A stretch of 64,000 nucleotides of DNA, from assembly GCA_002730875.1 (NCBI GenBank), contig PCBI01000010.1:62001-126000 (forward strand). Direction: 5' to 3'. The notes under the pieces were generated by a model that did not search any database, was not told the DNA's origin, and saw nothing but the letters and a program-made list of their open reading frames with translations. Made by a program: the position numbers and the translations under genes. Of the stretch, positions 15,466-42,932 are shown piece by piece. The first letter of the stretch is position 1; the number at the start of each line of letters is the position of its first letter. This stretch comes from Spirochaetaceae bacterium. Its GTDB lineage: Bacteria > Spirochaetota > Leptospiria > Leptospirales > Leptonemataceae.

Positions 15466-15664
15466 ATAAACATTGGATGTGTTTCAAACATAGAGGACAA
15501 GCAAAAGCGTCCATGACTCTAACGAATGGAGCCCGCCGCAGAATGCGCGGCTGGATTAGCGTTCTTGACGCCAGCCCAGCCCGAGCAGCGGCCCAAAAAA
15601 GCCTGAAGCTACCAGGCGAAAAACAACCGGTTTACGCCTCAGAGCTCGCCGCAATTCTGCCTGA

Positions 15665-22110: not shown

Positions 22111-22337
22111 GCGAGCGTAACTCTAAAGTGCGGAGCACTTTTGGCGGTCAGGATGACCACAAGCGGCGAAGCCGCGCAACAGAATTCACGGGAGCCCCAT
22201 TGCAGGAAGCAATGAGGCGAGCGTACCTCCAAAGTGCGAACCACTTTGGCGCGGGCAGGATGCCCGCAAGGTCCGAAGGACCGTAAAAACTATCACGGGA
22301 GCGAAGCTACACGACGTAGCTTCGCGAGCGTACCTCT
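22111..22337. repeat. Hairpin repeat array A, about two units
   Basis: The CGAGCGT box starts at 22112 (variant), 22218 and 22325, so the period is 106-107 bp. CACGGGAG boxes lie at 22187-22194 and 22294-22301. Between them are perfect or near-perfect stems: AAGTGC-GGA-GCACTT, GGTC-AGGAT-GACC, GCGGC-GAA-GCCGC, CATTGC-AGGAA-GCAATG, GGGC-AGGAT-GCCC, GGTCC-GAA-GGACC, and a 9-bp stem with ACGAC loop. The last CGAGCGTACCTC ends one base before the ATG of the ferredoxin gene, which has no Shine-Dalgarno of its own. Confidence 0.85.
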
Positions 22338-23699
22338 ATGACCAACAACCAAATGAATTCAGTACCATTTAAAGCATTTCAACCCTACAACCTTATGGCC
22401 ACGGCGCTGATTACGATAAGCCTGGCCGTGCCGGTGTTGAGCCTTGCCGGATTTGCCGTGCCGGCAGGAGGGCTGTATCTCGTTTTTTTTCCCGGGCTCC
22501 TTTGCCTCGGCTTCTTCATGATGGCCGCGCAGAGAGCCTTGTCCAAACCAGCCGGGATAGACAATCATGGGATTTACCAGAGTAGCGTCACCGGACGCGG
22601 GCTGGCCGGAATTCTCCTGGGCGTCGTTATCACCGGGCTCTATGTGGTGATCTATTTCGGAAATCGCATCCCACTGGGCGACGGCACAGTGCATTCCCTC
22701 TTTCAGGAACGGCTCTACAACTACTTCAACCCGGTGAGCGAATTCATCCGAAACAAGCCTGCAGATAACTGGTTCTTCTACAGCCTGATGTACACGCTGG
22801 CGGTTTTCGTTTTCGGCGTCCGAATGATTTTCAAACATCGTCATTCTCCCTACCAAATCATTCGCACGATTTCGGTAATGGTAGTGCAAACCGGATTCGG
22901 TTTCCTTATACCTTATCTGCTGGTAGCCTTCGAGAAGCCGGAATTCTACTTCAGCTACTTCTGGCCGCTGAAGCCGGAATATCTTTACCCTTCCACCTGG
23001 CCTGCCCTTGCTTCCGGCGCTTTAGGCACATTCTTTTCCGGCGAAGCGCAGGTGATGACCTACTTCCTGGTTTTCGGCGCCTTTATGACCTTTGTGGCCA
23101 CCCCTATCCTCACCTATTTCTTCGGTAAACGCTGGTATTGCTCCTGGGTATGCGGCTGCGGCGGCCTTGCCAATACCGCCGGCGATCCGTTTCGACAACT
23201 GAGCGATAAATCCCTGAAGGCCTGGAAGCTGGAGCGATGGATCATCCATTCTGTTCTGGTAGTTATAGTCCTGGTCACGGGAGTTCTGTGGGCCAACTCC
23301 TTGAGCGATGGGCAACTCTTTCCGGAATGGGGGGTGCCGCTACGCGAAGCCTACACATTTTATATTGGGATGATATTCAGCGGCGTTGTGGGCGTTGGTT
23401 TCTATCCGTTGCTGGGAACCCGGGTCTGGTGCCGGTTCGGATGCCCCATGGCAGCCATCCTGGGCATCATTCAGAAGTTTTTTTCCAGGTTTAGAATCAC
23501 TACCAACGGAGGGCAATGCATCTCCTGCGGCAACTGCTCGACCTATTGCGAGATGGGCATCGATGTGCGATGGTATGCGCAACGAGGCCAGAACATTGTA
23601 CGGGCTTCTTGCGTGGGTTGCGGCATGTGTTCCGCTGTTTGCCCCAGAGGCGTCTTGAACCTGGAAAACGGAATCGTTACAGCCCGGGTGCCATCGTAG
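22338..23699 (+). CDS. Membrane-bound 4Fe-4S ferredoxin-type protein (NapH/NosR-like)
   Basis: A 453-residue protein with about eight hydrophobic helices and iron-sulfur motifs. In the membrane part, WYCSWVCGCGGLAN and TRVWCRFGCPMAA are the paired cysteine signatures of NapH/NosR/RdxA-type proteins. The C-terminal region carries two 4Fe-4S motifs, CISCGNCSTYCEMG and CVGCGMCSAVCPRG. It probably moves electrons between the membrane quinone pool and a soluble partner. The FAD oxidoreductase just upstream is the obvious candidate. Its ATG directly follows a repeat box (TACCTCT) that resembles anti-Shine-Dalgarno sequence, an unusual leader. Confidence 0.85.
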   Translation: MTNNQMNSVPFKAFQPYNLMATALITISLAVPVLSLAGFAVPAGGLYLVFFPGLLCLGFFMMAAQRALSKPAGIDNHGIYQSSVTGRGLAGILLGVVITGLYVVIYFGNRIPLGDGTVHSLFQERLYNYFNPVSEFIRNKPADNWFFYSLMYTLAVFVFGVRMIFKHRHSPYQIIRTISVMVVQTGFGFLIPYLLVAFEKPEFYFSYFWPLKPEYLYPSTWPALASGALGTFFSGEAQVMTYFLVFGAFMTFVATPILTYFFGKRWYCSWVCGCGGLANTAGDPFRQLSDKSLKAWKLERWIIHSVLVVIVLVTGVLWANSLSDGQLFPEWGVPLREAYTFYIGMIFSGVVGVGFYPLLGTRVWCRFGCPMAAILGIIQKFFSRFRITTNGGQCISCGNCSTYCEMGIDVRWYAQRGQNIVRASCVGCGMCSAVCPRGVLNLENGIVTARVPS

Positions 23700-23819
23700 T
23701 TTCAGGAAGTTCCACCGGGCAACTACAGGATAGCCTGAGGCGGGTGCGGCCCGGATAAAGAGGGTGCGCCTCGATTCATGACCTCCCCGTCCAAAGCGCC
23801 GTCGCAGCCAAAAAGGCCC

Positions 23820-24953
23820 CTACCCAATACAGAGGAAGTCCACTTCCTGCTCGAAGCCATTCTCCTGAAGAGCCCGCTGGATGATGCCCCGGGCGCCGCG
23901 GGCGTTCACGTACACCAGCACAAAGGGGCGCGGCGAATCCGCATACAAATACTCGGGACTTCGCACGGCAATCCGCACTGGAGTGGCCCGATCAGAACGA
24001 TGGGTGTCTGCTTGAACCGTTTCGCCTGCTGGGGATCTTTCGTAATCGCCCCCGGGGCTTTCTTCGGACATGCGTGCCATCGGCACACCGCTGGATTCCA
24101 GCAAAGAGGGCTTGATATCCACGTAGTATTCCGGTATCCAATCCGGGAAGTGGTCTTCGAATCGACGTCGGGATCGCCGACTGGCCCCCCAGACCACCAT
24201 TCGCCGTTCGGACATTCGCTTATGGAGAGCCAGGTCCCGGGCCAGATACTCTTTTCTAAGTTCGTGAAAAGCCTGCTTGCTGTATCTATGGTCCTTTCGG
24301 GAAAGCTGGTTCTCGCTTACACGGTATTGAAGCAGGGTGTCCGGTAGCTTCTCCACTCGCATGCCTGCCTGAAGACATCGCAAAAATAAATCGTAATCTT
24401 CCGGGAAGGGACCATCCCGATATGCGCCCAGGGACTTCAGCGAATTCACCGGCATGGCCAGTGTCGGATGTTGTAGCGGGCACTCCACATATCGATTGGC
24501 AAGAATGTCGGATTCGCAGACCAGATTGTTCTGCCAGGCGAAGTATTCCTGTGCACCCGGGCCCGGATTCCCCACGGGCTCCACCAGACAGCCAGATACA
24601 TCCACCTCCTCAAGATGCTCCAGCTGCCGCTGCAATCGAACAGGGTCCATGATGTCATCCGCATCCATGCGCACGAAGACCGGAGACTGACACAGGCTCA
24701 GACCTTGATTGAGCGCATCCACAATGCCCGCACCCTTACTTTGAACCAGGCGAATGTCAGGCCAGACGAGACCCTGCCCTTTTCGGGATTCCGCCACCGC
24801 GCGAATCAATTCCGAGCCCTGATCAGTAGATCTATCGTCGATCAGGAGTATCTCGAAGTACGGGTAGCTTTGATTCAGAACAGATTGCAGGCAATCATTC
24901 AGGGTATTTGCTGCATTGCGAAATGGTATGACTATGCTGGCTGCGGGTTTCAG
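23820..24953 (-). CDS. Family 2 glycosyltransferase with apparent CTG start
   Basis: A 377-residue GT-A glycosyltransferase. Reading from a CTG at 24953 gives a perfect family N-terminus: KPAASIVIPFRNAANTLNDC, then FEILLIDDRSTDQGS with the nucleotide-binding Asp pair, VFVRMDADDIMDP (the DxD-type motif) and GPFPEDYDLFLRCLQAGM with the catalytic acidic region. A stop codon lies two codons upstream of that CTG, and the first conventional start (TTG at 24809) would cut off the first strand and the DD motif. The C-terminal 130 residues are a second, unrecognised domain (MVVWGASRRSRRRFEDH). It follows a secreted-protein gene by about 20 bp. Confidence 0.8.
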   Translation of the reverse strand: MKPAASIVIPFRNAANTLNDCLQSVLNQSYPYFEILLIDDRSTDQGSELIRAVAESRKGQGLVWPDIRLVQSKGAGIVDALNQGLSLCQSPVFVRMDADDIMDPVRLQRQLEHLEEVDVSGCLVEPVGNPGPGAQEYFAWQNNLVCESDILANRYVECPLQHPTLAMPVNSLKSLGAYRDGPFPEDYDLFLRCLQAGMRVEKLPDTLLQYRVSENQLSRKDHRYSKQAFHELRKEYLARDLALHKRMSERRMVVWGASRRSRRRFEDHFPDWIPEYYVDIKPSLLESSGVPMARMSEESPGGDYERSPAGETVQADTHRSDRATPVRIAVRSPEYLYADSPRPFVLVYVNARGARGIIQRALQENGFEQEVDFLCIG

Positions 24954-24973
24954 TAGTCAAAGGCTGATGACGC

Positions 24974-25579
24974 CTACTGAAATGGCGAGAACTTTACGCC
25001 GTAGGCGATATAGTTGCTGCCACAGGTCCGCGGACAAAAAGTACCGTAGATTCCGCTGCGGTGATGGATTCGCAGGAAAGCCCGGGGCTCGTACGCATCC
25101 ACCGGCAGGCCGATTTCGAGTTCGAATACCAGATAGTTGAGCAGATTTCGCGAGTACTCCGATTCGCCGTTTATCCCGTAGAAGCTTCGCGGGTTTTCCA
25201 GGTCCGGATTCCTGGTGGCCAGCGAAAGACCTTCACCCACCGCAAAGCTCACAGGCACTCCGGAAAAATCCAGGCTATCGCCCATGCGAGCCATGATCAG
25301 AGCATTGAATTCAAGATGCTTTTGCGAACCGGAATGATGCACCACCTGGCCCTCCCATTCCATGGGCAGGCCAAAAAAGGCCATGGGCGCCGGTTGCGAA
25401 ACAGCGCCGGTAAAAATGTAGCTGGGTTTGAAATCCGTGTCGGCCTTCAAGGCAATGTTACCCAGATTACTTCGGGTAAATTGCCCCCGGTAGAAGGTAA
25501 TGTCCGTCCGGTCCGGCTCATCCAGAGCATGCAGGGAAGTGGAAGCCAGCAACATTACCAGGGTAAGGGCGCGTACCAT
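24974..25579 (-). CDS. Secreted or outer-membrane hypothetical protein
   Basis: A 201-residue protein with a cleavable signal peptide (MVRALTLVMLLASTSLHA). The rest is beta-rich, with YIFTGAVSQPAPMAFFGLPMEW near residue 55, and ends FLRIHHRSGIYGTF...GSNYIAYGVKFSPF. The HH-x-S-G-x-x-G end resembles the active-site strand of PagL-type lipid A deacylase barrels (H-x-S), so a barrel enzyme or porin is possible, but the match is weak. It lies upstream of the glycosyltransferase with a 20-bp gap, which suggests one transcript concerned with the envelope. Confidence 0.6.
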   Translation of the reverse strand: MVRALTLVMLLASTSLHALDEPDRTDITFYRGQFTRSNLGNIALKADTDFKPSYIFTGAVSQPAPMAFFGLPMEWEGQVVHHSGSQKHLEFNALIMARMGDSLDFSGVPVSFAVGEGLSLATRNPDLENPRSFYGINGESEYSRNLLNYLVFELEIGLPVDAYEPRAFLRIHHRSGIYGTFCPRTCGSNYIAYGVKFSPFQ

Positions 25580-25689
25580 GGTATTTGGACGATCGTGATC
25601 CCCCGATGGTTGTCAGAAAAGCTGGCGAAGGCCGTTCCATTTGCGGGAGGCCCGCGGCCAAAGTGGCTGCAGGTGACATCTAAGCGGGT

Positions 25690-26841
25690 TCAATCCACGA
25701 TAATCCGTGGAATGCCTGGCTCAATTCGGGTCACAACCTCGTAGTTAATGGTACCGGCCAGATCCGCCAGTTCATCCGCTGTAACAGATTCTCCGCCATC
25801 CGAGCCAATCAAGGTAGCCACATCGCCGGGGGCGCATTCCGGGATGGAAGTTACATCTACCATAATCATGTTCATACAAACCCGGCCCAGAAGCGGCGCT
25901 CGACGTCCGCGAATCAGCACATGAGAGCGATTGGAAAGACTTCGATCATAGCCCTCATAGTAGCCTACCGGAATCACAGCAATGGTAGTAGGCGCCGTGG
26001 TTCGGTAGGTGCATCCGTAACCCACGTCAACGCCCTCCGCCACCGGATTGATGTGCACGACTCGAGCTTTCCATGACAGCGCCGGCCGAAACTCCGGCAT
26101 CTCCGCCAATACCATCTTTGCGCTCAGACGCGTGGAACTGGAAGCCCAGAATCCATAGAGCGAAATCCCAACCCGGATCCAGTCCTGCCTGGACTCTGGA
26201 AGCAACATGGCCGGGGCGCTGGCGGCGCTGTGACAGATCAAGGAGCCCTGAAAACCGGCCCTGTGGATGGCGCCCGCCTCTTCCATGGCCTTCGCGAATC
26301 GGGCGTATTGCAGCCGGCCATAGCCCTGATCCATTACATCCTCTACGTTGGCGAAGTGGGTCATGAGCCCACGCCAGGGCAAATCCGGGTTTTCGGATAG
26401 ATATTGCAATACCCTGGCCAACGCCTCATCGTGCGCCCCCAGACGACTCATGCCCGTATCCACTTTTAGATGAAAAGGCAACGAAGGGCGGACCGAATGC
26501 AGAGCCAGTATATCATCCACGGTAGACAACACGATATGAAATTCCCTTTCTTGTTCGGGAATCCTGGCATAATCGGAATCCTGGTTGCGGCCCATAATCA
26601 GAACCGGGCCCGCATATCCCCACTCCCGAAGCTGCACCGCCTCGAAGATAGCATTCACCGCCAGGCCGGAAACCTCACCCGAGCTATAGAGCGGCATAAG
26701 AATCTCCAATAGCTGCTTGAGTCCATGACCGTAGGCGTTGGACTTAACCACGGCAAAGAACCCGCTATTCGGCGCAATGGCCCGGTAATTGCTCACCGAT
26801 TTCTGGATAGCGCTCCTGCTGATTTCCAGCCAGGTATTCAT
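25690..26841 (-). CDS. alr: Alanine racemase
   Basis: A 383-residue PLP-dependent alanine racemase supplying D-alanine for peptidoglycan. Lys33 in FAVVKSNAYGHG binds PLP. The other catalytic residue, Tyr, is in VDVGYGCTYRT, and GRVCMNMIMVDVTSIP is the usual C-terminal signature. WLEISRSAIQKSVSNYRAI is a standard start. Length and domain order (TIM barrel, then beta domain) are normal. It is followed by the secreted protein and glycosyltransferase genes on the same strand after 110 bp, so an envelope-related cluster is plausible. Confidence 0.95.
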   Translation of the reverse strand: MNTWLEISRSAIQKSVSNYRAIAPNSGFFAVVKSNAYGHGLKQLLEILMPLYSSGEVSGLAVNAIFEAVQLREWGYAGPVLIMGRNQDSDYARIPEQEREFHIVLSTVDDILALHSVRPSLPFHLKVDTGMSRLGAHDEALARVLQYLSENPDLPWRGLMTHFANVEDVMDQGYGRLQYARFAKAMEEAGAIHRAGFQGSLICHSAASAPAMLLPESRQDWIRVGISLYGFWASSSTRLSAKMVLAEMPEFRPALSWKARVVHINPVAEGVDVGYGCTYRTTAPTTIAVIPVGYYEGYDRSLSNRSHVLIRGRRAPLLGRVCMNMIMVDVTSIPECAPGDVATLIGSDGGESVTADELADLAGTINYEVVTRIEPGIPRIIVD

Positions 26842-26969
26842 ACAGCCACCGAAAAAAAGCGACTTGCTCTGTATACCGGTTTGTCAATTGTGGAAGATTC
26901 TTGTGATATCTGCATTCTGCTCGCCCCATCCTATGGCTGGCTCGCAGGGCGCGGACATCGGGGAGAAGC

Positions 26970-27253
26970 GCCCGCAAGGTCCGAAGGACCGCAAAATTTT
27001 CACGGGAGTGACGCTACAGGATGTAGATTCACGAGCGTACCTCTGAAGTGCAGAGCACTTTGGGTGATCAGGATGATCACAAGCGGCGAAGCCGCGAACA
27101 AATTTCACGGGAGTCGCATTGCACGAGGCAATGGGGCGAGCGTACCTCCAAAGTGCAAAGCACTTTGGGTGATCAGGATGATCACAAGCGGCGAAGCCGC
27201 GAACAAATTTCACGGGAGCAGCAATACAGGATGTATTGCTGCGAGCGTACCTC
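26970..27253. repeat. Hairpin repeat array B, three units at exact 105-bp period
   Basis: CACGGGAG boxes start at 27001, 27106 and 27211; CGAGCGTACCTC boxes at 27032, 27137 and 27242: both with exact 105-bp spacing. Inside each unit are an AAGTGC/GCACTT stem with AGA or AAA triloop, a GTGATC-AGGAT-GATCAC stem, a GCGGC-GAA-GCCGC stem and an A/T-rich GAACAAATTT spacer. The stem between the two boxes differs in each unit (loops AGGAT, ACGAG, AGGAT). A GGTCC-GAA-GGACC stem opens the array. The remainder of the 426-bp gap (26842-26969) shows nothing clear. Confidence 0.9.
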
Positions 27254-27267
27254 TAAGGAGCCGAACA

Positions 27268-27402
27268 GTGAAGAAGCTGAAGACCAGATTATCCGTTCGA
27301 AAGCGACTGCAGAAGAAGCGCGAAGCAAGAGCTTTGCGAAGCAAGGCCAAACAGGCCCACAGACGCGGTACCGGATACAAAGACCTGGAAGATGCCGAGT
27401 AA
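27268..27402 (+). CDS. 44-residue basic protein
   Basis: A GTG start with a strong AAGGAG 7 bp upstream opens a 44-residue frame. The product is very basic and helical: KKLKTRLSVRKRLQKKREAR, then SKAKQAHRRGTGYKDLEDAE. Its stop overlaps the ATG of the carboxylesterase gene by one base (TAATG), which supports real translation. It resembles small ribosome-associated or nucleic-acid-binding proteins in composition, but I cannot place it in a family. The ribosome site lies just after the last box of repeat array B, where the CCTC of the box could pair with it. Confidence 0.65.
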   Translation: MKKLKTRLSVRKRLQKKREARALRSKAKQAHRRGTGYKDLEDAE

Positions 27403-28031
27403 TGAAGCCTATTGCAGGCCTCCCGCTACGCAATCATTTCATTCCCGCAGAAAGAAGAGACTCCGCATTGCTGATCGTCATGCACGGGCTGGGCGATCGC
27501 ATGGAGTCTTTTTTCGATTTCCCTTCTCTGTTGCTGGGTAACCGGCTCTCCTATCTGTTTCTAAACGCACCGGACGCCTACGTGGTAGGCTGGAAGTGGT
27601 ATGATCTGGACGGTCAGCAGGAAACAGGACTAAAGAAGTCCCGAGAACTTCTGGACGCAACCATCGACCATCTTCACAAAGAAGAAGACATTGCGCCGGA
27701 TCAAATTGTTCTTTCGGGCTTCAGCCAGGGAGCAGTGGTCAGCCTCTACACAGGGATTCGACGTACACGCCCGTTAGCCGGCATTGGCGCCCTTTCTGGA
27801 TATCTGTTCGGCGGAGTGGAAGAAGCCAGCGATGCCAGCAAAAACACTCCCATCTTTATGACGCACGGCCTTTATGACGAAGTGCTGCCCTACGAGCGGT
27901 CCGAACAACACGGCGAACTGCTTTCCGAAGCCGGCTACAAACTGGACTGGCGCGAGTACCCCATGGGGCATCAGATCTGCCAGGAAGAGATGCAGGATTT
28001 CAGTCAGTGGCTGAGCGCCATTGTTAGCTAG
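27402..28031 (+). CDS. Phospholipase/carboxylesterase (alpha/beta hydrolase)
   Basis: A 209-residue alpha/beta hydrolase of the phospholipase/carboxylesterase (Abhydrolase_2) family. The oxyanion-side motif LLIVMHGLGD, the nucleophile elbow LSGFSQGAV with catalytic Ser, the Asp in HGLYDEVLPYE and the His in YPMGHQI form a complete triad. It should cleave short carboxylic or lysophospholipid esters in the cytoplasm. There is no signal peptide. Its ATG overlaps the stop of the 44-residue basic protein, so the two are coupled. Confidence 0.9.
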   Translation: MKPIAGLPLRNHFIPAERRDSALLIVMHGLGDRMESFFDFPSLLLGNRLSYLFLNAPDAYVVGWKWYDLDGQQETGLKKSRELLDATIDHLHKEEDIAPDQIVLSGFSQGAVVSLYTGIRRTRPLAGIGALSGYLFGGVEEASDASKNTPIFMTHGLYDEVLPYERSEQHGELLSEAGYKLDWREYPMGHQICQEEMQDFSQWLSAIVS

Positions 28032-28146
28032 CGCACGCCCACTGAAACAGGCTCACCGATTCGGCCAGCGCAGCCGCCCGATTGGTACCCGTAGAGCTTA
28101 TACGCAGCTTCCCAGGGATCGCGCGTCGATTCAAGCCAATCGTATA

Positions 28147-29481
28147 TCAAACCAATGGAAGCAAATCGTTTAGCCACAGAAGGGCAGTCAGCAGCGCCAC
28201 CCAGATGAGCGAACCATAGTAAAGCCACTGCCTTTCCACAAGGGCGAAAAGGATCATCGCCGGCGCGAATATTCGGGCAACGTTCGCGAAATTTAGCCAG
28301 TACTCAGCCGCGCTGGCAAAGGATATCAAAAGCAGGTTACCCGCCAGGCCCGCGATCAGAAGCACATTCCGCTGGCTTCGCGGCGAAGCGGAGTCGTTGC
28401 GAGGCGTTTTTGGAGATTTCGAATTCTTCGCATGCAGAATAAGCGCAACCAGCGTTACCGTCATCCAGAGCAGGCCCATTACCAGCAGTCCACGACCGCT
28501 TATCAGCTTTGGTTTAGTCCCAAGGAAGTCCATGAGCCCGGAAAAAGGGACCTGAACCTTGCCTCCGGCGCCATCGCCGGCGAAAAAGCCGGTCCATCCA
28601 TACCAGGCGATGGCGAGCAGCCCCGCAAGAAGCAATATAACAGGAAGCCGCAGGCATCGCCAGGGAGCGCCACGACCGGCTTCGGCGCCTGCAGCGCGAA
28701 ACCTGCTGTAACAACGAAACAACGCTGCCAGCCCCATACTGCCCCCCACCAGAAACATGGTCTCCTTGCCGAGCATAGACAGAAGCAGCAGTAACCCGGC
28801 AGTTCCATACAGCGCTCCGGTGGACGTGGATCCGGAACCGGGATTGGCCCAGGACCGCATGATAATGAGCGAAGCGATACAGGCCAACGCAAGGGCCAGA
28901 GGCTCCGCCAGATTCAAACCGAAAGAAAGCAGACTAATCGGATTAACGCCAAAGAGCCAGGCCGCCCGGCGGTCAAAAGAGAACAGCAAATAGGATGCCA
29001 GAAGATGCGAAAGCAATAGCAATGCCGGCATCCCCAGCATGAGCGCCTTCGGCGAGAGCCAGTACAGCCAGCCCGCGAGAAGCGGAAAAGCGATCCGCGA
29101 AAGGCGAAAGCCGATGCTGTCCACCACTACAGGCGAGTCCGGGCTGCCGACTTCTTCATATAGTTTCGCATCCGCTTTAGCGGGATCGCCGGACCGGGAT
29201 TCAAGATCGGCAAGCGAAATGACAGGTCTTCCAGAATAGATGGCGGCGGCCACATAGTAGTAAAACTGACCGTCGTAGCCGCCGGTAGGGAAAACGGGAG
29301 CGTCTTCAGGTATGATATGGGCGTTAAGCTTCGCCAGGCAGACATCATCCGGCAAACAGCCAAAACCTACCAGCGAGCCAGGCCCTCCAAAGCGGGCGGA
29401 TCGCAATGCACCGTACGACAGGAAGAGTATCGCAATGAAAGTGAGAAAGAAATGCTTATTTTGAAACACCGAGTGATTCAT
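28147..29481 (-). CDS. Multi-spanning membrane protein, AZOBR_p60025-like glycopolymer family
   Basis: About 444 residues with ten or more hydrophobic helices. FPTGGYDGQFYYYVAAAIY soon after the first helix is the pattern seen in a family annotated as surface glycopolymer formation proteins, which resemble GT-C glycosyltransferases. I start at the ATG at 29481 (MNHSVFQNKHFFLTF); the longer frame reading from 29697 only repeats the opposite frame of the upstream gene. The start overlaps the end of that STAS-like gene by 26 bp. The basic loop KNSKSPKTPRNDSASPRSQRN separates the last helices. Enzymatic activity is not proven. Confidence 0.7.
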   Translation of the reverse strand: MNHSVFQNKHFFLTFIAILFLSYGALRSARFGGPGSLVGFGCLPDDVCLAKLNAHIIPEDAPVFPTGGYDGQFYYYVAAAIYSGRPVISLADLESRSGDPAKADAKLYEEVGSPDSPVVVDSIGFRLSRIAFPLLAGWLYWLSPKALMLGMPALLLLSHLLASYLLFSFDRRAAWLFGVNPISLLSFGLNLAEPLALALACIASLIIMRSWANPGSGSTSTGALYGTAGLLLLLSMLGKETMFLVGGSMGLAALFRCYSRFRAAGAEAGRGAPWRCLRLPVILLLAGLLAIAWYGWTGFFAGDGAGGKVQVPFSGLMDFLGTKPKLISGRGLLVMGLLWMTVTLVALILHAKNSKSPKTPRNDSASPRSQRNVLLIAGLAGNLLLISFASAAEYWLNFANVARIFAPAMILFALVERQWLYYGSLIWVALLTALLWLNDLLPLV

Positions 29482-29911
29482 AGGGAGTGGTTCGCCCGCG
29501 GCTATCCACACGAAAATGGGTGCCGCAAACCGGACAACTATAAAGACCGGTTCCCTGAATCTGCAGCTTTCGAGCACATTCCGGACAATAGGCCGCCGGC
29601 TCGGGTGCCTGGACGGTCCCGACATCGGAATTGCTTTCGGAAGCCACCAGCGCCGTTCCATCGTGCAGATTCCAGCCGCAGTACTGTAGCGCCACACGGC
29701 ACTCGCCGGACAAATCCATTATGGCCAGTTGACTACCCTGTTTCTCCACCCGATCTTTCAGCATGCAGGCCGAAGCAAAATCCACAGAAAAAAGGCCCGA
29801 ACCATCCGCTCGATAGCGAATATGCGGTCTGGCCGAGATTTCCTCCATCAGTGATTCCACCATGGGTCGATCCAGTGTACCTTTCAGTATAAAATGTACG
29901 GTCTGATTCAT
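29456..29911 (-). CDS. STAS-like domain fused to a zinc ribbon
   Basis: A 151-residue protein. Residues 1-90 have the strand-helix pattern of a STAS / anti-sigma antagonist domain (LFSVDFASACMLKDRVEKQG, AIMDLSGECRVALQYCGW), but the usual D-S-S-G phosphorylation site is replaced. A linker leads to a compact zinc ribbon with Cys109-x2-Cys112 (YCPECARKL) and Cys126-x2-Cys129 (YSCPVCGTHF). The combination suggests a small regulator or adaptor. Its stop overlaps the start of the membrane protein gene, so the two are probably cotranscribed. Confidence 0.65.
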   Translation of the reverse strand: MNQTVHFILKGTLDRPMVESLMEEISARPHIRYRADGSGLFSVDFASACMLKDRVEKQGSQLAIMDLSGECRVALQYCGWNLHDGTALVASESNSDVGTVQAPEPAAYCPECARKLQIQGTGLYSCPVCGTHFRVDSRGRTTPYESLGVSK

Positions 29912-29954
29912 AACTTGTTTGCTATCTGCGAGTCAAAATGGTTTTGAGTCCTAC

Positions 29955-30800: not shown

Positions 30801-30820
30801 TCGGCGAAACGATTCGCGAT

Positions 30821-31465: not shown

Positions 31466-31583
31466 AGCCAATGGCGCCGGAACCCATACAAAGCCCGACC
31501 TGAAGAAATACCGGATCTACGATAGCGGACGCTGCGGCAATGCATAGGCCGGGATAGCGCGCCGCATCGTTTCAAACGATTGG

Positions 31584-31612
31584 TTGTTACAGAAGGTTTG
31601 CACTCGTATAGG
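31584..31612 (+). promoter_or_regulatory. Candidate promoter of the lipoprotein-receptor operon
   Basis: TTGTTA and TATAGG are separated by 17 bp, about 25 bp upstream of the first lipoprotein gene. A second possible -10 (TATAAA) follows. This is a weak match found by eye. Confidence 0.3.
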
Positions 31613-31637
31613 GGGGCTATAAAAGTGGTTCAGATCT

Positions 31638-32784: not shown

Positions 32785-32785
32785 T

Positions 32786-35392: not shown

Positions 35393-35997
35393 TGAAGCCG
35401 ATCAGATTCGCTAGATCCGGTTTGCCTCGCAGATCCGGTGTGCCGCGCCTGCATTTGTGGGCTGCGATCGCCCTGTTCGCCGCATCGCTGACGAATGCCT
35501 GCAAAAGCGACTCCTTTGAGGACGTGCCCGATACAGAAGAGACCGCTTCCTATTATTTATTACTAATTGCCCCCACGCGGGAAACGGCGCTGGCCCGATG
35601 CATTCAGGCAGAAACCGTGGCGCTTTCCTGCAGCCAGGACGGCGGCCGCCAAACCGGCTACCTGAGCGCAGTTAGCACAAACTATCAGCCGGCCAGCACA
35701 TCCTCCGATGCCGCTACCCTCTGCGATCAACTCATTGACGCCCGGGTCTTTAACAGCTCCACCATCTACACCTACGGAGCCCGGCAGTGCCACTTCGAGT
35801 GCAATCGACAATACTGGCAGTCTCGGAGAGACAGTAGCCTGTGCACATCCAGTGGAACCACCACAGCCATCCAGGCCCATCGAGATTGCAGTCCCACCCT
35901 GTGGCGCAGCAATTGCACTGACACCACTTTTAAGAACTGCCTGGTGGACTGCTTTGTAAACGGGACCGACACCTACTTTCTTCCTCAAGGATACTGA
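35392..35997 (+). CDS. Cysteine-rich lipoprotein
   Basis: A 201-residue lipoprotein whose ATG overlaps the stop of the receptor gene (TGATG). The signal peptide ends in LTNAC. Ten further cysteines are spread through the mature chain (for example RQCHFECNRQYW, DCSPTLWRSNC, KNCLVDC), an even number consistent with five disulfides. No known domain is evident. Its place beside a TonB receptor and two DsbD-like thiol proteins suggests a folded, disulfide-bonded surface factor. Confidence 0.75.
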   Translation: MKPIRFARSGLPRRSGVPRLHLWAAIALFAASLTNACKSDSFEDVPDTEETASYYLLLIAPTRETALARCIQAETVALSCSQDGGRQTGYLSAVSTNYQPASTSSDAATLCDQLIDARVFNSSTIYTYGARQCHFECNRQYWQSRRDSSLCTSSGTTTAIQAHRDCSPTLWRSNCTDTTFKNCLVDCFVNGTDTYFLPQGY

Positions 35998-36136
35998 GCC
36001 ATCCACGCCCATTCAGGTCCGGATACCGGCCACACCACACCAGGTCCCCTCTGAGTGCCCAGCACAGTGGTCCGCCGGGACCTGGAATGCTCAAAAAACT
36101 CTTCCCGAACAGATCCACCGATTCCAGTTTAGTCCT

Positions 36137-36598
36137 ATGAGTTTCAAAAAGGCTTCACTACTCTATGCCGCAGTGTTCTCCGTAGCTGCGTTCTCCGTGC
36201 AATGTACCGAAACCGAAAAAAGCGGATCCGACGGGATCCCGGAAGCCACCATCAAGGCTGCCACGGTAAACGATGAAACCACGGTAACGATTACCATACC
36301 GGCGGATCATCATGCATACCTGGACAAAGGCCCGCAGGGTAACCTGATTCCCGTAGCCTTCGACTGGAAACCAGCCCTGGAGTCCGGCAAAGTGAAAGCG
36401 GAGCCTGAATTGCAGTCCTCGCCGGAAGGCCAGAAAGAGGAAGCCACCGGAGCCCTGGTTATGCGAGGCACCGGAGAGTTTGTGTTTTCTGGAGGCGAAA
36501 TCGAGACAGGAGCTCAGATAAGGGTCAGAACCCAGATTTGTAACGAAATCAGCGGCATGTGTTTTCGTCCTTCCTGGCAAACCGTAAATGTACAGTAG
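36137..36598 (+). CDS. DsbD N-terminal-domain lipoprotein
   Basis: A 153-residue protein with a lipoprotein-type signal (FSVAAFSVQC) and the immunoglobulin-like alpha domain of DsbD. The conserved redox pair is in TQICNEISGMCFRPSWQ (Cys-x6-Cys), and TITIPADHHAYLDKG is the usual first half. In DsbD this domain receives electrons from the membrane part and passes them to periplasmic substrates. Here it is a separate lipoprotein. The next gene encodes the matching thioredoxin domain; the membrane part of DsbD is missing from the window. Confidence 0.82.
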   Translation: MSFKKASLLYAAVFSVAAFSVQCTETEKSGSDGIPEATIKAATVNDETTVTITIPADHHAYLDKGPQGNLIPVAFDWKPALESGKVKAEPELQSSPEGQKEEATGALVMRGTGEFVFSGGEIETGAQIRVRTQICNEISGMCFRPSWQTVNVQ

Positions 36599-36667
36599 TA
36601 GGATCAGGTCCGGGCCCACGTCGATAACGGCTCCGTTCGATCCAGACCGTCCGGAAAAGATGACAGA

Positions 36668-37195
36668 ATGAAAAACACATTTCGCACATTTCTTTTTGCG
36701 GCAATCGCGGGTAGCCTGCTCATCGGAGCCACCGGTAGCTTTCTCTACTTCTACTTTAATTCGAAATCCTCGGTCGCCGCCCCGGTGAGCCAGGAACCCC
36801 CTTCGTCGGGTATCGCCGAAACACGCCACGGGAATCTCACCATCTACCGGGACCCAGCTGAAGCGTTTGCGCAGGCACGGAAAACCGGCAGACCCGTATT
36901 CCTGGATTTCTATGCGGACTGGTGCGTAAACTGCGTAAAGTTTCAGGATCGAATGCTACAAGATGATGCGCTAAACCAGGCGTTGAGCGAATCCATAGTC
37001 CTGAAAGTGGTAGAAGATGATGCGGCTTTTCAGCATTATTCCCTCGAAGGTCGCTTCCCGGAAATCAACGAATCTTTGCCGCTGTTTGCAGTTCTCAGTC
37101 CCGCCAATGACCTGGTCTGGAAGGGGCAGGACTATCTGGACTCCCAATCCATGATAGAGGCGCTTAACCGGGCCATCCAGGCTCCTCGCCCGTAG
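36668..37195 (+). CDS. Membrane-anchored thioredoxin, DsbD C-terminal type
   Basis: A 175-residue protein: one N-terminal membrane helix (FLFAAIAGSLLIGATGSFLYFYF), a linker, and a thioredoxin domain from about residue 55. The active site FLDFYADWCVNCVKFQ has the CVNC pattern of the DsbD gamma domain. The protein should reduce the upstream DsbD-alpha lipoprotein or other exported thiols. The two genes are 70 bp apart on one strand. Without the central TM module they would need a CcdA-like partner elsewhere in the genome. Confidence 0.85.
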   Translation: MKNTFRTFLFAAIAGSLLIGATGSFLYFYFNSKSSVAAPVSQEPPSSGIAETRHGNLTIYRDPAEAFAQARKTGRPVFLDFYADWCVNCVKFQDRMLQDDALNQALSESIVLKVVEDDAAFQHYSLEGRFPEINESLPLFAVLSPANDLVWKGQDYLDSQSMIEALNRAIQAPRP

Positions 37196-37266
37196 ACGCA
37201 CTACGCACTCCAGGCCTCGGAGTTTGCCTTGTTCCAGGGTCTTTGTACGAGTCCACGGCAGAACCC

Positions 37267-37374
37267 TTTTCAGAGAATTCGCCGGTAAGTCCTGGACAGT
37301 GCCGTTTTCAGAGGATTCGCCGGTGAGTCCGGGAAAGTGCCGTTTTCAGAGAATTCGTCCGTGAGTCTTCCCGC
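37267..37374. repeat. 38-bp tandem repeat, about 2.8 copies
   Basis: The unit begins TTTTCAGAGAATTCGCCGGT and ends AGTGCCG. Copies start at 37267, 37305 and 37343; the third is partial and more diverged. It occupies the gap between the thioredoxin gene and the convergent DUF1574 gene. Confidence 0.75.
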
Positions 37375-37473
37375 TAAGAGCAATTCCAATGGATTCTACT
37401 GGAATTCGGAATGTTTCGGCGGCTTGCTCGGGGATTGCCCACACTATTTTTCCGGCAGGCTTATTCCGGCGGT

Positions 37474-38634
37474 CTATTCGCTCTTTTGCGTTCGGGCAAG
37501 AATCAGCGGATAGGCATCCATGGCTACCGACAGCACCGGATTGTAGCACTGAAAAGACATATGACTGCCGTCCGCAAAGGTATTGCAGTGGAAGGGGTCG
37601 CCGTCCGTAAGATCTATGAGCATCTCTCCCTCCAAACGCTTATCCATGCGCTCGCTCCAGATCGCGGTGTTTTTCTGTATTAGTTCATCCGAGTCCAGAA
37701 TGGATTGCATGGGCCTGGATACAGGTGGTCGCAAGAACACCAGGGGAAGATTCGCCTCTCGGGCCCGTCGTAGCAACTGATCCAGAAAGCCCCATTGCCT
37801 TTCGGACAGTTCGTAGTTCCCATAGATCCAGCGCACGGTCATCTCCGATGTGGCGGCCAGACTTGCGTAATCGCGTTCATAGTAATCCGGTCTGGGAATC
37901 AAAGACATCCCGCCACCCCGGTTCTTGCGCTGGAACTGATCCATTTGCTGAATGGCGATCAAGAATTTATTCTGCGGATCGGACAATCGCTCCACGGCTT
38001 TGTCCAAATGGGGCCGGAATCGATACCCGGCGAAAAGGTTCTTGGCCAGGAATTGACTCACTTCATCCGCAGTGAATCCCTGATCGGAGGAGAGCAATGA
38101 GTAGTTCTCCAGAACGTACGCGAAGTCAAAACTGTAGGCAAGGTTGGACTTCACAAATCCCGGGGAGTTTTCGTTGAACTGAAAAGGGTCCGACTCCGCA
38201 ATCACGTAGTCCGGCTTCACGCCCGTTGCCAGGACTTCCTGTAGCATATAATCGAAATAAGCGGGAGAACTTACCGGGGCCGAAAAGTTAAACATCTCCC
38301 AGTTGGGGTAAGCATGTTTGAAGCTTTCGTAGTTGAAGTAAAGAAGCCGCGAGCTACCCAGAACCACCAGGATCCGCTTGCCCGAATGCTCGGAGCATGG
38401 ACCCGACACATCTTCAATACAATTGCCCTGGCTATCCGCCGGCGGCAGTTTCCGCAGGCGATCAAACTCCTTTAGCTCCTGCAGCAGCTCCGGTTTGTAA
38501 TCGTAGTAGATGTAAGTGGCATCATCCTGAGTGTACCGCTTTACCGAGTCCAGGCACATGATCTTGTCCAATGCAAAAAAGGCAAAGAACAGAATCACAG
38601 GGAAAAGTAGGAATCGACGAGAACCGTCAGACAT
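37474..38634 (-). CDS. DUF1574 family protein
   Basis: A 386-residue protein of the DUF1574 family, which I know mainly from Leptospira. It has an N-terminal anchor (FLLFPVILFFAFFALDKI), then an SGNH-hydrolase-like fold: VLGSSRLLYFNYESF as the catalytic-type block I, NFSAPVSSPAYFDY, and a C-terminal DGSHMSFQCYNP with a His that could complete a triad. It may act on envelope polysaccharides, as SGNH proteins such as AlgX do, but this is inference. I begin at the ATG at 38634, which overlaps the stop of the upstream GT87-like gene; the longer frame only repeats the other gene's reading. Confidence 0.78.
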   Translation of the reverse strand: MSDGSRRFLLFPVILFFAFFALDKIMCLDSVKRYTQDDATYIYYDYKPELLQELKEFDRLRKLPPADSQGNCIEDVSGPCSEHSGKRILVVLGSSRLLYFNYESFKHAYPNWEMFNFSAPVSSPAYFDYMLQEVLATGVKPDYVIAESDPFQFNENSPGFVKSNLAYSFDFAYVLENYSLLSSDQGFTADEVSQFLAKNLFAGYRFRPHLDKAVERLSDPQNKFLIAIQQMDQFQRKNRGGGMSLIPRPDYYERDYASLAATSEMTVRWIYGNYELSERQWGFLDQLLRRAREANLPLVFLRPPVSRPMQSILDSDELIQKNTAIWSERMDKRLEGEMLIDLTDGDPFHCNTFADGSHMSFQCYNPVLSVAMDAYPLILARTQKSE

Positions 38635-40102
38635 AGACCGCTTCCTTACGCATAGCGCGAAGAGTAAATACCAGACTCCAGATGCAAAGCGCAAACATCA
38701 GCCAGGTAAATACGCTATACATGGCCAGAAGATCACGCACCGGACCGGGAAATACAATGTTGCCCAGGCCGGAGAACGCTATAAACCCTATCATCCATCT
38801 TTCGCCGGCGGAGAAAGGCTCCGGCCCAAAAATCCGAAATGCCAGCGGAACCAGAAGAAGACAATAGGCATGGAACCAGCTTACGCCGGATACCAGCAGA
38901 CTTACAAGAATCAAGGATTGCACGAAATACACCCGGGCCAATCTCAGGTCCGGCCGGTAGAACTTTCTTCGCAGCGAAAAAATCACCGCCATTCCGGTAA
39001 CGACGGCAATCAGTCCGTAGACCAGGGTCTTTATGCCCGTTCGTAGCCAGAAAGTCCCGGACGCTCCCAGTTCTTCTATAGAGTTGAAAAACAAAGGCAA
39101 TCCGGCGGCAGCTTGCTTGGAAGGATCGGAACCCGCCACAAATAGCTTGGAAAGGGCCGCCGAAATGGTCTGGTTGTTCGCATACGGTCGCACCACCCCA
39201 TACTGGCTGTAGGTATTAATCATCAAATCATACCATTCCAGGTGCCACTGATAATTAAGGCTCCAGCCTGAAAAGAGAGCGGGAAGAACCAGACAGAGGA
39301 GTCCGGCGACGACGGCGCCAAACAGAGCCTTGAAGTTTCGTCTACCCAGCAGGAATAAGCCCAGTATAGCGGGCATGATTTTGATCACCGCAGCAATACC
39401 CAGAAATGCGCCGCCCAGGTAAGGGAGATACCCGCGAAAACCATCTTCGGACTGACCATCCCCTCCGGCCAGGTCCGGCGAAGACAAGAGTAATCCTCCG
39501 CCCGTAAGAAAGATTAGCAGAAAACCTACGTTAGCATTGGCCGCATTTTCCGTAAGAAATGAGGCCACCGGAATCATACTCAATGCGGCCAGATACCAGA
39601 AGCGATCCCGATCCATGCGGTCATGGTGGCGGCGAATCAAGACAAAGAAAAACCAGAGAAGAAAGAGGCAGGAAATCTGAAAGATCATCACCGCCACTTC
39701 ATAGCCTACGAAGCTCAGCGGCAAAAGCAGGAAGGCAAAGAAAGGTAGATAGAGGTACGAGCCCGCCCCTTTCAGGGATTCCAGATAAGCTCGCCCTTCC
39801 GGGGTCATGGAGAACTGAAGCAACTCCACCGGATTGTTCACATCGATTTCGATGCCGTCGGTATTCTCCATATTCCGAACCGCATCCATCTGATACAGAT
39901 CGCCTTCTTCGGCCATTCGCCGGGCTGCATTGTAGTAGTCCTCAAAGTCGCTTCGGGCACTTCGTAATTGCAGAAGGCCGCCATCGGCCTCATCCAGCAC
40001 CCTCAGACCGGATATCAGAAGAGCCAGAAAGGCCACCAGGGCCACGTAAACGCCGTATTTGCTCAAAAAAGCAGAGACCTTTTTCCTTAAATCATACATC
40101 AT
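38627..40102 (-). CDS. GT87-like membrane glycosyltransferase
   Basis: About 491 residues with ten or more hydrophobic helices, of the GT87 (DUF2029) polyprenol-phosphate mannosyltransferase-like type. The first periplasmic loop has SARSDFEDYYNAARRM, where the Asp resembles the catalytic residue of GT-C enzymes, followed by GAGSYLYLPFFAFLLLPLSF and later KIMPAILGLFLLGRR and YANNQTISAALS. It likely adds a sugar from a lipid carrier to an envelope glycan. The start is ATG 40102; a GTG five codons upstream (40117) is possible. It overlaps the DUF1574 gene by 8 bp. Confidence 0.78.
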   Translation of the reverse strand: MMYDLRKKVSAFLSKYGVYVALVAFLALLISGLRVLDEADGGLLQLRSARSDFEDYYNAARRMAEEGDLYQMDAVRNMENTDGIEIDVNNPVELLQFSMTPEGRAYLESLKGAGSYLYLPFFAFLLLPLSFVGYEVAVMIFQISCLFLLWFFFVLIRRHHDRMDRDRFWYLAALSMIPVASFLTENAANANVGFLLIFLTGGGLLLSSPDLAGGDGQSEDGFRGYLPYLGGAFLGIAAVIKIMPAILGLFLLGRRNFKALFGAVVAGLLCLVLPALFSGWSLNYQWHLEWYDLMINTYSQYGVVRPYANNQTISAALSKLFVAGSDPSKQAAAGLPLFFNSIEELGASGTFWLRTGIKTLVYGLIAVVTGMAVIFSLRRKFYRPDLRLARVYFVQSLILVSLLVSGVSWFHAYCLLLVPLAFRIFGPEPFSAGERWMIGFIAFSGLGNIVFPGPVRDLLAMYSVFTWLMFALCIWSLVFTLRAMRKEAVYV

Positions 40103-40222
40103 TTCTGTGCAAAACACTTCCGCAGACAGGCCTTTCGGAGAGTCTGAACATCTCGGGGCCTTCTAAGAACAATGCCTGAGATAGACCCCTTTTGGCAAAA
40201 CGATTTTACGTGTATCGGAGCC

Positions 40223-41314
40223 ATGGACGAATTATCCGAATTACAGAAAACCTATCAGTTTGATCTGCCCGATGAGCTGATCGCCCGACATCCGGCCCAG
40301 TTCCGGGATCAGTCCCGACTCATGGTCTTGCCAGCGGACCGACCGCTTCCGGAGAATCGATCCTTCTTTGAGCTGGATCAGATTCTGGAGCCTTCGGATA
40401 TTCTGGTCTGGAATGATACTCTGGTGGAGCCCAGGCGAGTCTTTCTGCAAAGATCGACCGGAGCGCGAATAGAAGCATTATTCCTGGAACCCGTGCAAAG
40501 CGACCCTTCTCGTTCGGTAGCGCCTGCCCCGGAAGGATCGCAGTCCTGGAGTTGTCTGATCCGAAATGCATCCAGGATCAAACAAGAAGAACTTCTTATT
40601 GAGCCGCAAAGTCAGCGGAACTTCCGTTTTCTTCGACTCACCGACAGCGCTAACAATCACTCTTTTTTTCTGCAGCCGGAGCCGGGCCTGAACATGCATG
40701 AGTTTTTTCTCAACTACGGCCAGATGCCCATACCTCCCTATCTGGGTCGGGAAGAAGAAGCCGGGGATCGCAATCGCTATCAGACCGTGTATGCCGGCGA
40801 CCAGGACCTGACCAGCGCCGCCGCCCCTACTGCCGGGCTGCATTTTAGCGCCCCCCTCATAGATCGTCTTAAGGATCGGGGAATTCGGATCGCCTCGGTA
40901 CGGCTGGCCGTGGGCCTGGGAACCTTTGCTCCGCTCACGGGGGAAAACCTTAGAAAAGGGGAACTCCATGAAGAACGATTCTCCATGCCCGAGACTACGG
41001 CGACGCTACTGAACCATCCGGCAGGGCGGATTATTGCCGTGGGCACCACCACCCTGCGCGCCCTGGAAAGCAACCTCAGGGAGTACCAGCGCTTCGAACC
41101 GGGCACCTTTCAAACCCGGGCCTTTTTCAAACCGCCGGACCGAATACGCTCAATTCAAGGCTTAATTACAAACTTTCATCTACCGGGATCCAGCCTGCTA
41201 ATGCTGGTATCCGCTTTTGCGGGCACCGAACGCATCCTTCATGCCTACCGGCAAGCTGTGGAAGATCGTTACCGATTTTACAGCTACGGCGATGCGATGC
41301 TGGTATTTGCTTGA
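40223..41314 (+). CDS. queA: tRNA preQ1(34) S-adenosylmethionine ribosyltransferase-isomerase
   Basis: A 363-residue QueA, which transfers a ribosyl group from SAM to preQ1 in tRNA during queuosine synthesis. Signatures: FDLPDELIARHPAQFRDQSRLMVL, the VWNDTLVEPRRVFLQR block, YAGDQDLTSAAAPTAGLHFS, and GTTTLRALES with LITNFHLPGSSLLMLVSAFAG at the end. The start is ATG 40223, with GGAG upstream; the 17 earlier codons of the open frame do not fit the family. The next frame opens four bases before the queA stop, though its better start lies 36 bp downstream. Confidence 0.95.
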   Translation: MDELSELQKTYQFDLPDELIARHPAQFRDQSRLMVLPADRPLPENRSFFELDQILEPSDILVWNDTLVEPRRVFLQRSTGARIEALFLEPVQSDPSRSVAPAPEGSQSWSCLIRNASRIKQEELLIEPQSQRNFRFLRLTDSANNHSFFLQPEPGLNMHEFFLNYGQMPIPPYLGREEEAGDRNRYQTVYAGDQDLTSAAAPTAGLHFSAPLIDRLKDRGIRIASVRLAVGLGTFAPLTGENLRKGELHEERFSMPETTATLLNHPAGRIIAVGTTTLRALESNLREYQRFEPGTFQTRAFFKPPDRIRSIQGLITNFHLPGSSLLMLVSAFAGTERILHAYRQAVEDRYRFYSYGDAMLVFA

Positions 41315-41349
41315 CCGTAGGCAGGATTCCATCCAGGATTCAGGAACCT

Positions 41350-42255
41350 ATGCAGACGTTGGAAGATATTACCAGGGTAGAGATGATTCGAGTTCCGCAT
41401 TTTGAGCTGGACTCATTTCAGAAAAACATACTGGATAATCTGTATCTGGAGTTCTTCCTGGAACAATGCCGCGTACTCGTTACACCGGATTTCAGCTATA
41501 TGACCACCGGCCCCGCCTCTTCGGAGGAATTGGAACGGGTAGAGGAACTGTTAGCCTCCGGCAACGAAACCCTGGATAAGCTAAAGTGGTACCTGCTCTA
41601 CGATCTGAGCCTGTATTCGGCTTTGCTGGAAACCAATTCCTATTATATAGCCTCCAACGGTCATGTGCTCATCTCAAGGTTCGTCCCGGTAGAAGGCGAA
41701 GACCAGCGCTTCGAAGTTAAGCTTTATACTATTGCTGCCTCGGATCTTCCCGAGCAATACAAGGACAAAATCTATCTGGGCCGGGACTTCTTCTCGCTAA
41801 AGACCCTGCGAAGAGAGCACTTTGGGCTGAAACTCATCCGCGGCTCCATCATTGGGCAGTTTTACAAAATGCGCGATCGGGTAAACCAATACACCCTGTC
41901 CGAATACCACAGCGAACTGGAAAGCGAATACCTCAAGGAAATCGAAGAGATCTCAGGCGAGTTCGCCGAAGCCAGCGAAGGTATACTTTCCTCATTCCCC
42001 GTGGATATTTCCACCGACAGCCTGGAAAAACCGGCATTGATCGATGCCAACCAGCAGTTTAGAGACCTCAAGCACATTCTGATTGAGATGGAAGAATCCT
42101 TGCGCGAAATGGAATCCAGGCTGTTCGAATTGGATCAGACCAGGGCTGTTCGCTACGTTACCAAATTCAGAAAAGACATCACGAACTACACCAACTACTT
42201 CATCATAAAAGTAAACGGTCGCATTTCAGACGCGGTGAACGGGATACATATATAG
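41350..42255 (+). CDS. Conserved hypothetical protein of Leptospirales type
   Basis: About 301 residues, soluble, largely helical. It begins MQTLEDITRVEMIRVPHFELD, preceded by AGGAA, and an earlier in-frame start at 41311 would overlap queA. There are no signal peptide or membrane segments. The C-terminal third (RDLKHILIEMEESLREMESRLFEL) is a coiled coil with a basic end. I do not recognise the family. Its stop codon TAG overlaps the first hairpin-repeat box (AGGTACGCTCG at 42254-42264). Confidence 0.7.
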   Translation: MQTLEDITRVEMIRVPHFELDSFQKNILDNLYLEFFLEQCRVLVTPDFSYMTTGPASSEELERVEELLASGNETLDKLKWYLLYDLSLYSALLETNSYYIASNGHVLISRFVPVEGEDQRFEVKLYTIAASDLPEQYKDKIYLGRDFFSLKTLRREHFGLKLIRGSIIGQFYKMRDRVNQYTLSEYHSELESEYLKEIEEISGEFAEASEGILSSFPVDISTDSLEKPALIDANQQFRDLKHILIEMEESLREMESRLFELDQTRAVRYVTKFRKDITNYTNYFIIKVNGRISDAVNGIHI

Positions 42256-42660
42256 GTACGCTCGAAAAGCTACCTCCTGTAGCTTTTCTCCCGTGAGAAT
42301 TGCTGCGGCGCTACGCGCCTCGCAGACTTCGTGTCTGCCCAAAGTGCTTCGCACTTTGGAGGTACGCTCGAACAAAACCTCGTGTATTGCTCCTCCCGTG
42401 AAGGAGAATGCGGTCCTACGGACCTTACAAACTCATCGGCTCTCGACCTCGTGTCTCCGCCGACATTAGAACCTCCTTGTTCGTCATCCTGTTTGTCTAA
42501 AGAGCTTCGCTCTTTAGAGGTACGCTCGAGGCGTTGCCTCCTGCAACGCCTCGAGCGTGAGACAGGGGGCGCGGCTTCGCCGCTGGTGATCGTCCTGATC
42601 ACGGCAGTTCTCCGAACTGCCCGGTTACGCTCGGTAGTGTAGTCTGAGCTGGCATGCTTA
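42254..42660. repeat. Hairpin repeat array C, inverted orientation
   Basis: The boxes appear as reverse complements: GAGGTACGCTCG at 42254 (shortened), 42359-42370 and 42517-42528, and CTCCCGTG at 42288-42295 and 42393-42400. Read on the minus strand the stems again have A(G/C)GAN pentaloops (AGGAG twice) or GNA triloops, such as AAAGTGC-GAA-GCACTTT, GGTCC-GTA-GGACC, GGCGC-GTA-GCGCC and TAAAGAGC-GAA-GCTCTTTA. The region 42420-42480 is less regular. A 764-bp gap (42256-43019) is almost filled by this array and its continuation. Confidence 0.85.
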
Positions 42661-42667
42661 TCCCACA

Positions 42668-42772
42668 GATGTCCGCGCTTCGTGAGCCGGCCACAGGATG
42701 TGGCCAGTGGGGCAATTTGGGCACGGAAGCCCAACTTGACACACCGAACGAAGTGCGGACATCCTACGCTCG
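42668..42772. repeat. Long inverted repeat with nested hairpins
   Basis: A 16-bp arm at 42668-42683 (GATGTCCGCGCTTCGT) pairs with 42748-42763 (one wobble pair). Inside is GGCCAC-AGGAT-GTGGCC at 42689-42705 and a GGGC/GCCC stem near 42718. A TACGCTCG box (42765-42772) follows the outer arm. The remaining bases to about 42830 show nothing clear. Confidence 0.75.
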
Positions 42773-42848
42773 AAATGAATCTGAAGAATCTGTTAATCAG
42801 ATTCTGGATTCAACTGCCGCTTTTCCAGTTGGCCCTCGTGTATTGCTC

Positions 42849-42932
42849 CTCCCGTGAGAATTGCTGCGGCGCTACGCGCCTCGCAGACTTCGTGTCTGCC
42901 CAAAGTGCTTCGCACTTTGGAGGTACGCTCGA
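42849..42932. repeat. Exact 84-bp duplicate of part of array C
   Basis: The bases are identical to 42288-42371, running from a CTCCCGTG box to a GAGGTACGCTCG box. The upstream bases CCTCGTGTATTGCTCCTCCCGTG also match those at 42378-42400. The copy lies 88 bp before the next gene. Confidence 0.9.

Follow-up and report, generated by a model that had tools for sequence, protein, structure and literature searches.

The stretch of DNA analysed here (the window) comprises 64,000 nucleotides of a Spirochaetaceae bacterium (assembly GCA_002730875.1, contig PCBI01000010.1, positions 62,001–126,000 of the forward strand) and carries three arrays of a hairpin-forming repeat, designated A, B and C (Table 1). 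A preliminary description of the window had reported arrays at three places, in which two repeated boxes alternate with short stems. The arrays and both boxes are confirmed, and our search model R1 finds nine units in the window. The repeating unit is about 105 bp long (range about 104–107 bp, with a tandem-repeat period of 105 in array B) and consists of four hairpins. In the standard unit their order is fixed: triloop hairpin H1, pentaloop hairpin H2, triloop hairpin H3, a linker and the box hairpin H4. The H2 apex reads C-A(G/C)GAN-G and H3 has a C-GNA-G triloop. In H4 the outer stem is made by both boxes: ACG of box 1 (ACGGGAG) pairs with CGT of box 2 (CGAGCGT), followed by an additional G with C, and an ACCTC tail terminates box 2. 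The boxes, which alternate with stems in the preliminary description, are thus not linkers: they pair with each other around a GGA/GAG internal loop. Likewise, the loop classes described earlier are present, but the hairpins that carry them follow the order H1-H2-H3-H4.

Conservation within the unit was analysed in alignment A4, which contains 45 units from five genomes, selected for regular length out of 85 matches in alignments A2 and A3. Units with nested modules are mostly excluded by this criterion, so the A4 figures apply to standard units. The H2 loop is A(G/C)GAN in 41 of 45 units and the H3 loop is G-N-A in 40 of 45, in agreement with the constant loops of the preliminary description. 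In H4 most loops are A(G/C)GAN and some are hexaloop variants, and the H4 apex follows the pattern T-R-C-A(S)GAN-G-Y-A. A 3×3 internal loop GGA/GAG is found in H4 of 41/45 units. Fixed elements are the C–G closing pair of H3 (45/45) and a T–A pair near the H4 apex (43/45).

Box 2 (CGAGCGTACCTC) occurs in the three arrays in eight exact copies and two with one mismatch. When up to two mismatches are allowed, the window has 12 matches as compared to 3.90 expected (the maximum of 100 shuffles was 9), and the whole genome contains 26 exact copies and none of the reversed control. The sequence CACGGGAG by itself shows no enrichment in the window: there are 51 matches at one mismatch or fewer versus 57.8 expected. 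It is distinctive by position, about 23 nt upstream of box 2 in standard units, and the arrays hold eight exact copies plus one CACGCTCG variant. The heptamer GCGAAGC, previously noted in many copies, is found 35 times on both strands of the window; nine of these lie within the 1,241 array bases, eight of the nine on the array strand. The plus strand of unit 3 of array B is predicted to adopt the four-hairpin fold with the box stem both as DNA and as RNA (z values in Table 1). For the minus strand of this unit, the one unit folded, the four inner hairpins are predicted and the box stem is not. Some units contain modules (X and Y) nested in hairpin apices, and there are larger palindromes (Z); these were recognised by eye.

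Table 1. Repeat features of arrays A, B and C, in window coordinates
Feature	Position	Strand	Support and remarks
Left box 2 copy (CGAGCGTAACTC), opens array A	22112..22123	+	one mismatch
Array A unit 1	22123..22229	+	R1 107.2 bits
Array A unit 2	22230..22336	+	R1 102.3 bits; open reading frame starts directly downstream at 22338
Array B unit 1, H2 degenerate	26937..27043	+	R1 67.7 bits
Array B unit 2	27044..27148	+	R1 95.5 bits; tandem repeat, period 105
Array B unit 3	27149..27253	+	R1 101.8 bits; fold z −8.6 as DNA, −7.3 as RNA
Array B unit 3 H1, C-AAA-G triloop hairpin	27149..27167	+	predicted fold
Array B unit 3 H2, C-AGGAT-G apex	27169..27185	+	predicted fold, covariation
Array B unit 3 H3, C-GAA-G triloop hairpin	27188..27200	+	predicted fold, covariation
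Array B unit 3 H4, ACG/CGT box strands, GGA/GAG internal loop, inner stem, AGGAT apex	27212..27248	+	predicted fold, covariation including box pairs
Array C last unit	42253..42358	-	R1 100.1 bits
Array C unit, module Y nested in H2	42359..42516	-	R1 56.2 bits at 42359-42479; module by eye
Array C unit, boxes fully paired (CACGCTCG ... CGAGCGT)	42517..42623	-	R1 90.7 bits
Module Z, larger palindrome within array C	42666..42764	-	by eye
Array C first unit, module X in H4	42766..42920	-	R1 47.7 bits at 42838-42920; module by eye
Box 2 opening array C	42920..42931	-	exact match

The stems of the unit change on both sides together. In A4, standard pairs make up 95.4% of the 1066 pair cells and two-sided changes are found in 21 of 24 pairs; 291 cells are changed on both sides and 12 on a single side. 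For four of the five measures of covariation, none of 500 shuffles reached the observed value, and the fifth ('further pair types') does not beat the shuffles (86/500 in A4, 80/500 in A1). When the structure was slid along the alignment as a control, 25–41% of cells were paired. Alignment A1, with 18 units picked by eye out of 39 stretches, gives 97.2% standard pairs among 432 cells and two-sided changes in 17 of 24 pairs. The box pairs covary too, with A–T to G–C, C–G to G–C and G–C to A–T changes in A4. Specifically, ACGGGAA/TGAGCGT is found in three units, and AGGGGAG/CGAGCCT, GCGGGAG/CGAGCGC, ACGTGAG/GCAACGT and ACGCTCG/CGAGCGT in one unit each. One unit has a T–A type outer stem together with a different internal loop, and in another the boxes are fully paired. 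The last units of arrays were also compared across species (15 comparisons from six loci, orthology being assumed from position beside the same gene). There are 249 identical Watson–Crick pairs, 85 two-sided changes that are still Watson–Crick and 19 pairs that are non-Watson–Crick in one partner, and the loop columns are identical in 203 of 225 cases. Covariation, proposed earlier as a check of the fold, thus goes far beyond shuffles and slid controls, also between species. Selection on the fold, as first suggested, is its natural reading, but is unproven because template-switch copying of hairpin arms could yield the same pattern.

The genome of the window (G000) is a 4.87-Mb draft of 20 contigs, 92.9% complete. 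Model R1 has 44 matches in it, four of which are there because one locus was assembled in two versions (start of contig C9, and C3). They form 15 arrays when the ends of contigs C8 and C20 are counted as one locus. Four congeners have 14, 2, 17 and 12 matches (45 in total), so that the search for further copies in the genome and its relatives, which had been recommended, was positive. With the covariation, this means that neither of the results named beforehand as a refutation was obtained. Among 56 other genomes R1 gives one weak match of 27.5 bits (genome G058), and model R2 matches none of the 43 further genomes tried from the class; these large searches, over 40 genomes each, used stricter filters by which weak matches are lost. 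Among the genomes searched, the hairpin family is confined to one genus, whose members are uncultured spirochaetes. An exact-pattern scan of a genome collection returned 20 stretches, ten of which come from the metagenome-assembled genomes SP332, HKST-UBA09 and NP47 (labelled Leptospiraceae or Spirochaetaceae); nine of these score at least 69.9 bits and one (L103) 12.1 bits. A blastn search of phages and plasmids with a single query of 222 bases gave no match. Rfam gave no match at gathering score in the window, and 10 loci gave sub-threshold matches only (E at least 0.2).

Several hits of these searches were set aside. Ten stretches of the pattern scan, from Actinomycetes, Anaerolineales, Paenibacillus (two), Clostridia (two), Nitrospira (three) and Accumulibacter, are regarded as chance (11.3–19.9 bits or unlisted), as is a single contig from the viral collection (11.3 bits). 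The weak match in G058, a member of a different family of the phylum, lies at L060 1540–1625 and has hairpins with CAGGATG apices and no boxes.

For ten of the 15 arrays, at least one congener has an array at the corresponding place, with flanks 64–92% identical (mostly 72–86%). This indicates a family that is old in the genus and has for the most part been passed on in place. A search with flanking DNA for empty sites covered two arrays (those on C4, C6 and C8/C20 lay outside it), one between the two genes of a pyruvate:ferredoxin-type oxidoreductase and one near 144.5 kb of contig C10. Both sites are empty in all four congeners. On contig C4 (L081 4013–5077) one unit splits an Rpn-type nuclease gene (PF04754), and the reading frame picks up at most two bases from the end of box 2. 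Relatives of this nuclease (P0003, P0005, P0006 and P0008; proteins 95, 86, 82 and 75% identical) are uninterrupted, and another, P0004 (91% identical), stops at the same residue as the split gene. The oxidoreductase locus is present in two assembled versions (L080 on C3 and L092 on C9) that are 98.9% identical over 4.37 kb and have a net difference of 86 bp, corresponding to one unit. In congener G004 adjacent units of one array (L124) have opposite orientations. At L080/L092 we also noticed that some H4 hairpins join arms of different units, as if recombination had taken place in the apex. By eye, the dinucleotide TA directly follows the final box 2 in 11 of 13 G000 arrays; this is possibly a target preference, the loci being partly non-independent.

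Based on these results we propose that the arrays are a tandem modular palindromic repeat, likely a mobile element of REPIN/BIME-like kind, which a putative trans-acting enzyme recognises in the form of a folded single strand of DNA. We consider this reading to have an even chance of being correct. Units would be gained at new sites by transposition and then mostly inherited in place. Stems change on both sides together, with the loops and the internal loop retained. Selection on the fold would keep them perfect, perhaps with some help from template switching that copies one arm onto the other. Arrays would grow and shrink through recombination between units. The plus strand, with its GNA triloops, A(S)GAN apex and purine internal loop, is probably the recognised form. 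A bolder version, in which identity resides in the loops, the internal loop and the fold, and the folded plus strand is mobilised by a system other than Y1 transposases and reverse transcriptases, is tentative and somewhat doubtful.

It is likely that the recognised form is DNA and not RNA. The sequence-based alignment A4 contains 14 G–U and 11 A–C pairs among 1066 cells, a G–U fraction that is uncalibrated on any known RNA. Much better tolerance of G–U would be expected of a fold under selection as RNA, and since G–U is hardly commoner than A–C, the result points to a DNA-level fold, which we prefer with moderate confidence. In DNA, C-GNA-G triloops have unusual stability. A scan for hairpins with a penalty on mismatches (7 G–U and 7 A–C of 1994 pairs) was not relied on as a calibrated control, the same rule having given only 15 hairpins and 84 pairs in E. 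coli rRNA.

Several observations weigh against a mobile DNA element. No Y1 transposase (PF01797, Y1_Tnp) was found in the five genus genomes, which are 77–94% complete (controls were positive in 5/14), and no reverse transcriptase (RVT_1) in the same five. There is no clear target-site duplication at the two empty-site loci. Gain by transposition and not loss in the congeners is the probable direction at these sites, a judgement of parsimony made without a tree. Movement must be rare because most arrays are at shared places. Model-guided alignments show some excess of G–U (43 versus 16 A–C of 1864), although such alignments lean to G–U. Finally, the H4 apex resembles the recognition sequence of CsrA, and csrA is present.

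The last point leads to a serious rival: the arrays may act as RNA, within leaders or operon spacers or as transcripts of their own, bound most likely by CsrA and regulating genes or titrating the protein. G000 has one copy of csrA (PF02599 match, 88 bits). Hairpin loops of E. coli CsrB are reported to carry CAGGA(U/A/C)G in several copies, and in vitro selection (SELEX) is reported to give RUACARGGAUGU as the consensus for CsrA (PMC5027483, PMC7652899). The H4 apex with its fixed T–A pair is similar to these, GGA is present in 60 of 90 H2 and H4 apical loops of A4, the loops of one strand are purine-rich and, by our own open reading frame calls, 10/15 arrays are in sense to the gene on their 3' side, which is not significant. 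Against this, 20 of the 90 loops (22%) are ACGAN, without the GGA that CsrA needs, and there are few G–U pairs. At least two arrays (C9c and window array C, probably also C8/C20) run antisense to the genes on either side, and another two are located between convergent genes. Unlike RNAs of the CsrB/RsmY type, the family consists of many dispersed arrays in both senses, with inverted units even within one array. No Rfam family fits, and the surroundings of array C have no strong promoter or terminator excess. We regard action as RNA as fairly unlikely. It is also conceivable that stem perfection has no function. Template switching during DNA replication can copy one hairpin arm onto the other and is described as giving multi-base compensatory changes in one event (PMC8794818), so the units could be inert repeats inherited in place whose quasi-palindromes have their arms recopied. 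This would agree with the dominance of two-sided changes and with recombination within arrays, but leaves unexplained the fixed loops, the GGA/GAG internal loop and the fixed pairs of H3 and H4. We judge it improbable.

Least probable by far is that the units are attC-like recombination sites of an integron-type integrase. In integron attC sites the single-strand fold is conserved and the stem sequence is variable, which is the mode seen here. Tyrosine recombinases are present in all five genus genomes (22 matches); of the seven scanned, only those of G000 and G003 are IntI/XerA-like, both scoring below the cut-off for integron integrases. The one of G000, on contig C20 (L183 13606–17534), scores 192 bits with TIGR02249 (cut-off 265), 127 bits with IntI4 of the PDB and 134 bits with XerA. 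The region itself looks like a chromosomal integron: the recombinase is followed by small open reading frames, a GCCTAAC...GTTAGGC pair lies at 16564–16795, position 15642 has a further GTTAGGC, and the long palindrome is present in a second copy that extends into the contig end. However, no unit lies within the 17.5 kb searched around this recombinase, the consensus of 45 units contains by eye no attC core sites (RYYYAAC/GTTRRRY), there are no cassette reading frames between units and, different from attC sites, the apical loops are fixed.

Among known repeats, the arrays resemble REPINs and BIMEs in being multi-copy intergenic palindromes that occur singly or in mosaic arrays and in both orientations, here with 44 matches, 15 arrays and one unit in a gene. 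Compensatory changes in hairpin spacers are reported as common in REPINs (PMC3116915). A GTAG or CGTC tag defines the super-families of REPs (PMC3733652), whereas no such tag is seen by eye at the hairpin foot in the 45-unit consensus; the lack of Y1 transposase in all five genomes, the four-hairpin unit and the nearly complete freedom of the stems around fixed loops are further differences. A survey reports REPs in Spirochaetota (PMC12306157). Palindromes of Volvox organelles have fixed short loops, variable stems and palindrome-in-palindrome insertion (PMC2670323), and mobility has been proposed for double-hairpin elements of Allomyces (as cited in PMC2800124). Intergenic location, fixed loops, variable stems and nested insertion are shared with these, and paired stem changes and presence or absence at homologous sites, as in mobile hairpins of mitochondrial type, are found here too. 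This points to a similar way of working and not to membership: our repeat is on a bacterial chromosome, it has a fixed multi-hairpin unit with an internal-loop hairpin, and no sequence relation is known. The initial view that no such element had been described holds for sequence and layout (in Rfam, in genome, viral, phage and plasmid collections, and in the available parts of the literature), but compensatory mobile hairpins and fixed-loop palindromes had been described. What is new in comparison with known hairpin repeats is that nearly all stem sequence is free and identity lies in the loops and the fold.

The window contains other tandem repeats that are unrelated to the arrays, at 37267–37367 (38-bp unit, 2.7 copies) and 12295–12418 (21/63-bp unit).

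If the proposed mobile element is real, paired stem change would let its copies diverge and yet remain recognisable. Recognition by the folded strand and not by sequence would be an unusual way for the identity of a repeat to persist, and the arrays point to a hairpin-recognising mobilisation system that is unaccounted for by the Y1 transposase or reverse transcriptase families. The family provides one fold in dozens of copies that have diverged naturally within a genus, with matched loci in several species and empty sites for comparison. This makes the question of whether selection or template switching is the source of compensatory change directly testable.

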